Shown here: one piece after another, positions 10,383-15,514 of the stretch
Layout: the number at the start of each line of letters is the position of its first letter
Position numbering within the stretch: the stretch's first letter is position 1
Origin: Hyphomicrobiales bacterium
GTDB lineage: Bacteria > Pseudomonadota > Alphaproteobacteria > Rhizobiales > Rhizobiaceae
NCBI GenBank assembly: GCA_900469965.1
Contig: UBZP01000024.1
Coordinates: 1-64,000, forward strand
Direction: 5' to 3'
Length of the DNA: 64,000 bases
Notes under the pieces: model-generated
Told to the model about the DNA's origin: nothing
Databases searched by the model: none
Seen by the model: only the letters and a program-made list of their open reading frames with translations
Program-made: the position numbers and the translations under genes

Positions 10383-10431
10383 TGCCGAAATGGTTTATCG
10401 GCACGTCCGAACCCCAAGACCGTCCAGTCCG

Positions 10432-11517
10432 ATGCGCATTGACCTGTTCGATTTCGAGCTCCCCGAGGAGCGGATCGCCCTACGCCCGGTGACCCCGCGC
10501 GAGTCGGCGCGGCTGCTCCTCGTCCGGCCGGACGAGGAAAACCCGTTCGAGGACCGCCATGTGGGCGACCTGCCGGCGTTCCTGCGGCCCGGCGATGCGC
10601 TGGTGTTCAACGACACCCGCGTGATCCCGGCGCAGCTCGAAGGCATCCGCCACCGCGAAGGGGCGGGCGGCCAGCAGGTTTCGGCGACGCTGCACATGCG
10701 TATCGCCGGCGACCGCTGGAAGGCCTTCGCCAGGCCCGGCAAGCGTATCAAGGTCGGCGACCGCATCGCCTTCGGCCACGGCGGCAACGTCTGCCTGCTC
10801 GGCTCGCTCGACGCGACGGTCGAGGAGAAGGGCGAGGGCGGCGAGGTGACCCTGCGCTTCGACCTCTCCGGCCCCTCCCTCGACGAGGCGATCGCCGGCG
10901 TCGGCCACATTCCGCTGCCGCCCTATATCGCCTCCAAGCGCGATGACGACGAGGCCGACCGCCGCGACTACCAGACGATCTATGCCCGCGAGGAGGGGGC
11001 GGTCGCGGCACCGACGGCCGGACTGCATTTCACGCCCGAGCTCTTTGAGAAGATCGACGCCGCCGGCATCGAGCGCCACTTCGTCACCCTGCATGTGGGG
11101 GCGGGAACCTTCCTGCCGGTCAAGGCGGACGATACCGACGACCACGTCATGCACCAGGAGATCGGCTACGTCTCGAAGCAGACGGCCGATGCGCTGAACG
11201 CGGTGCGGGCAAGGGGCGGCCGGATCATCTGCGTCGGCACGACGTCGCTGCGGCTGCTGGAGAGTGCCGCGCAGGACGACGGCACGATCGCGCCGTGGTC
11301 GGGCGCCACCGGCATCTTCATCACGCCCGGCTATCGCTTCCGCACCGCTGACGTGCTGATGACCAATTTCCACCTGCCGAAGTCGACGCTGTTCATGCTC
11401 GTTTCGGCCTTCGCCGGGCTGAAGACGATGCGGGCGGCCTATGCGCACGCGATCGAGACCGGCTACCGCTTCTATTCCTATGGCGACGCCAGCCTGCTTT
11501 TCCGGAAGAGACCATGA
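10432..11517 (+). CDS. queA: tRNA preQ1(34) S-adenosylmethionine ribosyltransferase-isomerase QueA
   Basis: Transfers and isomerises the ribosyl group of SAM onto preQ1 at tRNA position 34, giving epoxyqueuosine. The 361-residue protein starts [16 protein letters not shown], the family's usual N terminus. [13 protein letters not shown] and [14 protein letters not shown] are the conserved active-site segments, and [19 protein letters not shown] the C-terminal one. No strong Shine-Dalgarno is visible. It overlaps tgt by four bases (ATGA), so the last two shared queuosine steps are translationally coupled. Confidence 0.97.
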
Positions 11518-12653
11518 CCGAACGCTTCGAATTCAAGCTGCTTGCGACCGACGGCAAGGCCCGGCGCGGCGAGGTGTCGATGCCGCGCGGCACGATCCGC
11601 ACGCCCGCCTTCATGCCGGTCGGCACGGTGGGCACGGTCAAGGCGATGTATCTCGACCAGGTGCGCGAGCTCGGCGCCGACATCATTCTCGGCAATACCT
11701 ATCACCTGATGCTGCGCCCCGGCGCCGAGCGGGTCTCCCGCCTCGGCGGCCTGCACGGCCTGATCCGCTGGCCCCATCCGATCCTGACCGATTCCGGCGG
11801 TTTCCAGGTGATGTCGCTCTCCGGCCTGCGCAAGCTCGACGAGCAGGGCGTCACCTTCAAGAGCCATGTCGACGGTTCCCTGCACCACATGTCGCCGGAA
11901 CGCTCGATCGAGATCCAGGGCCTGCTCGACAGTGACATCCAGATGCAACTCGACGAATGCGTGCGGCTGCCGGCCGAGCCGAAGGAGATCGAGCGGGCGA
12001 TGGAGATGTCCTATCGCTGGGCCGAGCGCTGCAAGGCGGCCTTCGGCGACCAGCCGGGCAAGGCCATGTTCGGCATCGTCCAGGGCGGCGATATCGCCAG
12101 CCTGCGCGAGCGCTCGGCGCAGGCGCTGTCCGGCCTCGACCTGAAGGGCTACGCGATCGGCGGACTGGCCGTCGGCGAGCCGCAGGCCGTCATGCTCGAC
12201 ATGATCGACACGACATGCCCGCACCTGCCGTTCGAGAAGCCGCGCTACCTGATGGGCGTCGGCACGCCGGACGATATCCTCAAATCGGTGGCGCACGGCA
12301 TCGACATGTTCGACTGCGTCATGCCGACCCGTTCCGGCCGCCACGGCCTGGCCTTCACGCGCAACGGCCGCATCAACATCCGCAACGCCCGCCACGCCGA
12401 AGACATGCGGCCGCTCGACGAGCAGTCGTCCTGCCCGGCATCGCGCGACTACTCGCGCGCCTACCTGCATCACCTCGTGCGGTCCAACGAATCGCTCGGC
12501 GGGATGCTCCTGACCTGGAGCAACCTGGCCTACTACCAGGATCTGATGGCGGGCATTCGCACAGCCATCGAGCAGGGCCGCTATGCCGAGTTCATGGCGG
12601 AAACGCAGGAAGGCTGGGCCCGCGGCGAGGCGGAAGCGAAGAAGGGCGCCTAG
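11514..12653 (+). CDS. tgt: tRNA-guanine transglycosylase Tgt (zinc site degenerate)
   Basis: Exchanges guanine 34 for preQ1 in tRNAs for Asp, Asn, His and Tyr, 379 residues. The general acid Asp93 ([10 protein letters not shown]) and the nucleophile Asp267 (MFDCVMPTR) are both present, as is the substrate loop GLAVGE. The zinc motif is not: where E. coli Tgt has Cys302, Cys304, Cys307 and His333, this protein has Ser305, Cys307, Ser310 and Ser336, with the surrounding [11 protein letters not shown] well conserved. The reading frame is intact, so this is divergence rather than damage. See findings. Confidence 0.95.
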
Positions 12654-13408: not shown

Positions 13409-15367
13409 TCATTGCCCGTGCGCCGCCTGCTGTCCGTGCGCCGTGACGATCGCGTCCGCCTCCTTGCCGTAGACTTCCTCGAAATGATCGAAAGCCTTCG
13501 AGAAGTAACCGATGCCCTGCGTGGCCGAGCGCAGCGAGCGGGCGAGGTCCTCCAGCATGCTGGCCGGAACGAGGGCGCGGAAGGTATCCCAGCCCTTGGC
13601 GGCCTCGTCGCGATCGAACCCCAGCACCTGGCCCTTCAGCGCCGAGACGATCTGGACCAGCCCGCCGGTATAGACGGAGGGAATGTGGATCTCGACGCGG
13701 GCGATCGGCTGCATCAGGACCGGTGCCGCCTGCGCCATGGCCTGCCGCGCCCCCATCTTGGCGGCGGTCCGGAAGGCGTATTCCGAGCTGTCGACGGTAT
13801 GGTGCTGGCCATCCGTGAGCGTCACGCCGACGTCGATGACGCCGAAGCCGAGCGGGCCCTTGTCCATCGCCTCGCGGGCGCCGGCCTCGACCGCCGGGAT
13901 GAAGTTCCGCGGCACCGCGCCGCCCTTGACGACCTCGGCAAAGGAGAAGCCGTCGCCGCGGCCGTTCGGATGGACGCTGAGCTTGACGTCGGCGAACTGG
14001 CCGGCGCCGCCCGTCTGCTTGCGGTGGCGATAGTGGACCTCGGAGGGCCGCGACACGGTCTCCCTATAGACCGGGCTGGGCGGCTGGTCCTCCACGACGA
14101 TATGGAAGACGTCGGCGAGCGTCCTTGTCACCTCGCGTAGGTGCAGCGGGCCCTGGATGCTGATGAGGTAGGCGCCGGTGCCTTCCTCCTGCGACAGGCG
14201 CAGCCCGCGGTCGGTCTCGGCGATCTTGGCCAGCGCCGAAGAGAGCTTGGTCTCGTCGCGCTCGTTGCTTGGAATGAGGATCCGCTCGAGCATGGGCGAG
14301 GGCGGTGCCGTCCAGTCCGGTGGCGGGAAGGCCGTGCCGACCGCAAGCAGGGCAGGGACCGGCAGGCGGTCCGACTTGACCGAGGCAAAGACCTCGCCCG
14401 ACGCGAGCGGGCCGTTGGCGATCGGGCGGGACGAAATCGGATCCTGCAGCGTGCCGAGCCCGCCTTCGCCGAGGGCCGCGGCCTGCTTGATCTCGCCGAG
14501 CGCGCGCCCCAGCACCGTCTTGCCGATGTTCGCGCGGTGGAAGGCGTGGAAGCTCACGGCGGCAATGTCGGCTCCGGCTGCTGCTGCCAGCCGGTCGCGC
14601 AGCGCATCGACCGGCGGCGCCTCGTGGCGGAGCGCTTTCATCAGCCGCTGCATGCCGTTGCCGTGACCGGCCGAGCCGATGAAGACGGGGGTGATGCGGT
14701 TTTCCTTCAGGATCCGCGTGGCGATGGAATAGAGAGCGGCGCCGTCCGGCTCGCGATCCTCGATCAGTTCCTCCAGCAGCCAGTCGTCGAACTCCGAAAG
14801 ATGCTCGAGCAGCTCGGTGCGCGCCTCCTGTTCGCGCTCGGCGACGTCCTGAGGCAGGGCGACGAGATTGGAGGGTTGGCCCTCGCGGTAGCGCCAGGCG
14901 CGCTCGGAGATCAGGTCGACGCTGCCAACGATCGCCTCGCCTTCGCGGATGGGGACCTGCCGCAGCACGAGCGTGTGGCGGGCATAGTCCTGGAGTGCTG
15001 CGATCACGTCGCGGATGCGCCCGCGCGGTTCGTCGATCCGGTTGACGAAGATGATGCAGGGGGTTCCCGACGCCTCGATCACCCGCAGGTAGGGGGCTGC
15101 CAGCACGGCTTCCTCCGGCGCCGGCGAAACGCACAGGATGCAGGCGTCGCTGGTCAGAAGCGCGTTCTGCGCATGGGCGATGGCCTCGACCGAGCCGGGC
15201 GTGTCGAGCGCGCACCAGGATTCGCCGCCGTAGTCGAAGGTGCCGAGGTTCAGTCCGGATGGCGAGGCGCTCTTCTTCGCGCCGCCCGCGAGCGCGCCCA
15301 GTTTCTCCACAAGCGTCGATTTGCCCGTCTGCGACGGGCCGACCACGGCAAAGCAGCGCATCGGCAT
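13409..15367 (-). CDS. EF-G-like translational GTPase paralogue with atypical G domain
   Basis: A 652-residue protein with the EF-G domain order: a GTPase domain, domain II, and C-terminal domains IV/V (VHYRHRKQTGGAGQFADVKL, GSGF-like segments, PSVYTGGLVQIVSALKGQ). It is not the main fusA. The P-loop is G10-PSQTGK-S17, G3 is D55-TPG-S59, and G4 is N109-RID-112. Only 37 residues separate P-loop and G3, and the RGITI switch I motif is absent. A GGGAGGA Shine-Dalgarno precedes ATG 15367, which supports this start over one 43 codons upstream. Its role in translation is unknown; a ribosome-associated stress function is possible but inferred. Confidence 0.85.
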   Translation of the reverse strand: MPMRCFAVVGPSQTGKSTLVEKLGALAGGAKKSASPSGLNLGTFDYGGESWCALDTPGSVEAIAHAQNALLTSDACILCVSPAPEEAVLAAPYLRVIEASGTPCIIFVNRIDEPRGRIRDVIAALQDYARHTLVLRQVPIREGEAIVGSVDLISERAWRYREGQPSNLVALPQDVAEREQEARTELLEHLSEFDDWLLEELIEDREPDGAALYSIATRILKENRITPVFIGSAGHGNGMQRLMKALRHEAPPVDALRDRLAAAAGADIAAVSFHAFHRANIGKTVLGRALGEIKQAAALGEGGLGTLQDPISSRPIANGPLASGEVFASVKSDRLPVPALLAVGTAFPPPDWTAPPSPMLERILIPSNERDETKLSSALAKIAETDRGLRLSQEEGTGAYLISIQGPLHLREVTRTLADVFHIVVEDQPPSPVYRETVSRPSEVHYRHRKQTGGAGQFADVKLSVHPNGRGDGFSFAEVVKGGAVPRNFIPAVEAGAREAMDKGPLGFGVIDVGVTLTDGQHHTVDSSEYAFRTAAKMGARQAMAQAAPVLMQPIARVEIHIPSVYTGGLVQIVSALKGQVLGFDRDEAAKGWDTFRALVPASMLEDLARSLRSATQGIGYFSKAFDHFEEVYGKEADAIVTAHGQQAAHGQ

Positions 15368-15514
15368 TCCTCCCTCTGCCAGCATCGCAACTCTCTCCGT
15401 CGAGCAGGATGACGCGAAGCGGGCGGAAGCGCCAGAGAGGAAATCGCATTTTCTTTCAAGGAGCCAACCGCGCTGCGCGCCACGCCTTCCGATCAAGGCG
15501 ATCGGCGGCCGGCG

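Follow-up and report, generated by a model that had tools for sequence, protein, structure and literature searches.

The tgt gene carried by the window (the whole stretch of 64,000 nucleotides that was analysed, positions 1 to 64,000 of contig UBZP01000024.1 of a Hyphomicrobiales bacterium, assembly GCA_900469965.1) very probably encodes a functional bacterial Tgt in which the structural zinc site disappeared long ago and a core without metal took its place, a reading that we hold with a probability of about 0.85. Zinc can probably be dispensed with in the Tgt of Hyphomicrobiales. The loss would have occurred in an ancestor shared by Hyphomicrobiales and Parvularculales, and independently in a small number of further lineages of Alphaproteobacteria. 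Small residues at positions 305 and 310, Cys307 and a variable residue 336 would pack at the former position of the metal, and the re-packed subdomain would still carry the dimer interface and the tRNA contacts.

The gene (11514..12653, forward strand) encodes a queuine/preQ1 tRNA-ribosyltransferase whose structural zinc site is incomplete (protein P0001, 379 amino acids followed by a stop codon). The protein was identified with TIGR00430, the equivalog model of bacterial Tgt (467.9 bits for a cut-off of 306.75, residues 7–366), and with PF01702 (508.4 bits). The catalytic residues Asp93 (11790..11792, forward strand) and Asp267 (12312..12314, forward strand) lie in the columns of Asp102 and Asp280, the active residues of Z. 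mobilis TGT (PMC6165067). Both were invariant in an alignment of 91 sequences, which agrees with the statement of the sequence-only reading that the two catalytic Asp remain. The preQ1-type pocket GGLAVGE is present at residues 216–222. Among the nearest named Tgt relatives (83–89%) are Shinella, Ferranicluibacter, Sinorhizobium, Rhizobium and Agrobacterium, which places the window in or near Rhizobiaceae. The Z. mobilis TGT (1ozm, 1pud and 1q2r) shares with the window Tgt 54–56% identity, the catalytic Asp pair and the GGLAVGE pocket.

The solved Z. mobilis TGT 1ozm was aligned to the window Tgt and used as the reference for the ligand columns; its single zinc is held by what we take to be Cys318, Cys320, Cys323 and His349. 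In the window Tgt, these columns are occupied by Ser305 (tcg, 12426..12428), Cys307 (tgc, 12432..12434), Ser310 (tcg, 12441..12443) and Ser336 (agc, 12519..12521), respectively, all on the forward strand. These columns lie in a gapless stretch with conserved flanks. Only Cys307 is retained as a ligand, and the claim that three of the four zinc ligands had been lost, with spacing kept and flanks conserved, was confirmed. The CxCx2C...H zinc site of the solved TGT structures is thus absent from the window Tgt. The zinc site is counted among the two hallmarks of TGT, and in the human enzyme it is made of three Cys and one His (PMC6165067). One read error cannot account for Ser305 or Ser310, because tcg is two base changes away from both Cys codons. 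A relative of the same genus (L242) has S, C, S and N at the four columns and, since it carries Asn at the last of them, Ser336 looks like a recent Asn-to-Ser step.

Tgt loci were then aligned and the four columns were read. The order set was made of named records, of sample genomes from the order, family and genus, and of the window. For the order Hyphomicrobiales 186 Tgt rows were read, and none had the full site C,C,C,H (one genome was counted twice, as L216 and L226, and named and sample genomes may overlap). Chance or a read error was rejected on the basis of this count and of the two-base codon differences at 305 and 310. The full site was found in 0/62 named records of the order and, for the sample genomes, in 0/1 from the genus, 0/50 from the family and 0/71 from the rest of the order. 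For the order sample, 71 of the 95 genomes with a match were read (own genome apart), and for the family sample 47 of 60. L097 was dropped from the named records and from most other counts because it is out of frame ahead of the zinc region. This locus is the tgt of Rhizobium sp. RCAM05350 (L097:3001–4117), which has either a frameshift or an assembly error. In a genome of the same family as the window, the tgt match (G326:C1:2952090–2953210, L307) consists of two overlapping pieces, a possible frameshift.

By contrast, among the genomes read outside the order, 56 of 71 from the remainder of the class and all 27 from elsewhere in the phylum had the full site (in this last sample, 27 of 66 genomes with a match were read). 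For the sample of other orders, 67 of 83 were read and the remaining 16 were low-scoring, divergent or partial. The 15 class genomes without CCCH include L177 (CGCH, with a C-x4-C-C-like stretch), which may keep a shifted site. The zinc state of L161 (FECH) is ambiguous. That the missing ligands might be a lineage trait was therefore borne out by the four columns (0/186 order rows against 56/71 genomes of other orders). The initial observation is correct and was understated: the loss is order-wide and is repeated elsewhere in the class.

Within the order, one ligand was retained in place in 162 rows, two in 10 and none in 14. The commonest states were SCAN (58 rows), SCTN (20), SCSN (18), SCAA (16), SCAV (15) and SCSH (10). 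Cys and His are still paired in the ten SCSH rows, which include Agrobacterium tumefaciens L044. Five named Bradyrhizobium records have SWTI or SWAI, so that neither Cys nor His is left in any of the four columns. The full site is missing in all the records read under the names Rhizobium, Agrobacterium, Brucella, Bartonella, Bradyrhizobium and Methylobacterium.

Residues at the former ligand positions were then counted. Position 305 is Ser in 176/186 order rows and, by definition, Cys in the 96 full-site rows. Position 307 is Cys in 171/186 order rows; the 15 others have W (eight rows, including the five named Bradyrhizobium), S (three), V (two), N (one) or H (one). Position 310 is A in 112, S in 35 and T in 27 of the 186 order rows (174 together). 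The residue at position 336 is variable, with N in 101 rows, A in 30, I in 20, V in 17, H in 10 and S in 7. Compared with the column median, entropy was lower at 305 and 307 and higher at 310 and 336. Since three of the four positions are mainly limited to small residues or Cys, this pattern points to re-packing of the core and not to unconstrained decay. Tyr317 and His320, kept in all 186 order rows, match Tyr330 and His333, which are dimer hot-spot residues (PMC5395182).

The fold of the window Tgt was predicted with AlphaFold. The mean pLDDT was 92.5, with 96–99 per ten-residue block over residues 291–370; as AlphaFold ignores metals, these values show sequence and fold to be compatible, and as evidence for stability in the absence of zinc they are weak. 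The weakest inner stretch (residues 91–110, pLDDT 72–75) includes the catalytic Asp93. A full-site control, the Tgt of Roseomonas L108, gave a mean pLDDT of 93.4. The best structural match of the predicted model was the Z. mobilis TGT 1q2r (VIA-align, Z 55.5, rmsd 1.2, 371 residues) and, among the 50 matches listed, the Z. mobilis TGT structures had the same fold as the model (Z 54.1–55.5, rmsd 1.2–1.4). The sequence-only reading had proposed that the enzyme folds without zinc. The part of this proposal that concerns the fold stands, the former zinc subdomain being predicted with high confidence. As to the metal, we infer from the missing ligands that the window Tgt binds no zinc.

Another set of ligands might still bind a metal nearby, for instance Cys307 with a new His277 and a further residue, which we regard as very improbable. 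His277 (cac, 12342..12344, forward strand) aligns with Asn290 of Z. mobilis TGT, a residue of the SGR-N-G loop, and distinguishes the window Tgt from that enzyme. Such a site could be supported by the invariance of His277 in the order (186/186 rows, against 2/96 full-site rows) and by the retention of Cys307 in the 171 rows counted above. However, all 15 order rows without Cys307 keep His277, so the two residues are not kept together as a pair. When the columns with Cys or His in more than 30% of rows were inspected, only His277 combined invariance in the order with rarity in full-site rows, and no set of substitute ligands was found to be conserved. An alternative set of nearby Cys or His, which had been named as the finding that would contradict a zinc-free Tgt, was thus not conserved in the alignment.

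Column 277 was also used to follow the history of the loss. His was found there in 18 of the 24 zinc-less rows outside the order (these 24 include five named records without an order in their NCBI lineage, and one genome twice), and T or N in 91 of the 96 full-site rows. A careful tree was built from 53 chosen rows, 28 of them zinc-less, with the zinc columns and column 277 left out. In this tree, His277 changes once and the zinc state four times. The His277 group unites Hyphomicrobiales with Parvularculales and a small number of further lineages (24 rows at 83/0, or 23 rows at 95/91 when L003 is removed). A single origin of all 28 zinc-less rows was rejected (p-AU 0.012), as was a clade joining the His277 group to the Geminicoccaceae MAG L096 (0.019) or to L027 (0.029); these p-values are optimistic, since the 53 rows were picked after the earlier quick trees, themselves poorly resolved, were known. 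The careful tree supports one large loss, in an ancestor of Hyphomicrobiales, Parvularculales and the few lineages grouped with them, and two or more further losses within the row set. L005, which is zinc-less and has Asn277, adjoins the His277 group with weak support (60/37). Its placement hints that zinc was lost before His277 arose.

In the quick trees, 21/148 and 15/92 inner branches were starred, and each tree had nine zinc changes. Long-branch and duplicate rows were removed from the 95-row quick tree, in which His277 changes eight times and the full-site rows L007, L008 and L162 are placed inside the zinc-less group. The order rows L181, L182, L189, L190, L194 and L197 were away from most of the order in a quick tree; only L197 among them was entered in the careful tree. 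L164, L167, L171, L172, L174 and L177–L180 are outside the 53-row tree. The coupling of His277 to zinc loss was submitted to an independent-pairs test, which found three pairs on starred branches and hence had no power. Outside the large clade, His277 is absent from the zinc-less rows L005, L027, L096, L161, L167 and L172 and present in the zinc-less rows L164, L171, L177, L178 and L180. It is also present in the full-site rows L174 and L179. His277 is therefore neither needed for zinc loss nor unique to it. L177–L180 form a divergent Tgt group of the class (39–44% identity). They carry RHG at column 277 and differ in zinc state.

A more specific scenario, which we put forward tentatively and at clearly less than even odds, is that the zinc of TGT is replaceable, that a metal-free enzyme became fixed in the order and its kin through a defined change, His277 in the SGR-x-G loop, combined with a core of small residues, and that the zinc site was given up independently at least two further times. 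If this is true, the clade would be a natural experiment on the role of zinc in folding as opposed to tRNA binding.

The loss had also been linked to saving zinc, as an adaptation comparable to that of zinc-free ribosomal proteins. This explanation appears unlikely. For L31 and L36, the genes found in the window genome (L313 and L314) do encode proteins without Cys and, like Tgt, these are translation proteins that lack the usual zinc Cys and are present as the only copy found. A Zur-like regulator (NF008646, 80.7 bits, under the cut-off of 167) adjoins znuC/znuB-like genes (assigned to znu by eye), which also speaks for zinc sparing. However, L36 does not track Tgt. L36 was read at 30 loci of the class (those with the highest scores among the 91 genomes that gave a match) and has one or two Cys and no CxxC in 30/30. 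The Tgt of these 30 genomes is full-site in 19 and zinc-less in two, and nine are without a Tgt read. L36 without Cys pairs is thus found in all the class loci read, including the 19 with a full-site Tgt, whereas the Tgt loss is limited to some orders. A zinc-free paralogue switched by Zur is accompanied by a second, zinc-bearing copy in the genome. The genome-wide profile search gave a single PF01702 match, the window tgt, so there is no zinc-bearing Tgt copy with which to alternate. No site resembling the Zur box consensus was detected in the window when as many as three mismatches were allowed. The single tgt gene, the lack of such a site in the window and the distribution of L36 all argue against the link to saving zinc.

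The rest of the queuosine pathway was searched for in the window genome, which is rated 100% complete. QueC was not found; there were two weak partial matches only (23.2 bits for a cut-off of 22, and 21.9 bits), which were rejected because, on inspection by eye, their frames look like MnmA and NAD synthetase. The missing QueC could be taken to mean that Tgt has decayed and is no longer functional, an explanation that we find scarcely credible in view of its intact catalytic residues and pocket and of the presence of Tgt in 96 of 101 order genomes. The genome does encode QueA, QueG (443.4 bits) and a YhhQ-type transporter, a set that fits precursor salvage, in which preQ0 or preQ1 would be imported. 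Published effects of Tgt in two relatives, S. meliloti and B. henselae, also speak against decay and for a working enzyme.

In S. meliloti 1021, a tgt insertion mutant lost the effect on HeLa cells, was not rescued by preQ1 and fixed nitrogen poorly; in the portion of the article available to us, genetic complementation is reported for the queF mutant only (PMC3568095). The B. henselae Tgt, from the same order as the window, exchanges guanine 34 for preQ1 in tRNA, and in an E. coli queDF tgt mutant it gave a partial return of Q-tRNA at preQ1 concentrations as low as 10 nM (PMC11570991). Like the window Tgt, it has GGLAVGE at 216–222. B. henselae is described as devoid of QueA and QueG/H (PMC11570991), whereas the window genome has QueA and QueG. 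S. meliloti has queCDE (PMC3568095), whereas QueC was not found in the window genome. Congeners of these two species (S. kostiense, B. koehlerae and B. elizabethae) have SCAN and His277. Taken together, these reports point to Tgt enzymes that are active in cells in two Hyphomicrobiales relatives, whose zinc columns are known from congeners only. The word 'zinc' is absent from the main texts of PMC3568095 and PMC11570991.

The introduction of a 2022 article refers to studies of the E. coli enzyme for the statement that TGT activity depends on zinc, and the article places Tgt with the zinc-requiring enzymes of queuosine synthesis (PMC9508795). If the order runs Tgt without zinc, this statement would not be general and predictions of the metal requirement of the pathway would change. 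The role of zinc would become testable by comparing natural zinc-holding and zinc-free Tgt enzymes. Zinc-less Tgt was named in no title or abstract opening found by a literature search that left subscription journals mostly uncovered, and it may already be published.

The gene located just upstream of tgt is queA (10435..11517, forward strand), which encodes the next enzyme of the queuosine pathway (NF001140, 480.6 bits for a cut-off of 324). Its start codon was chosen by us within the open reading frame 10390–11517. The queA stop and the tgt start overlap by four bases. In S. meliloti, tgt (SMc01206) and queA (SMc01207) likewise have consecutive gene numbers (PMC3568095). Downstream of tgt, on the opposite strand, a gene at 13409–15496 codes for a member of the elongation factor G family (NF009379, 830.8 bits for a cut-off of 513).
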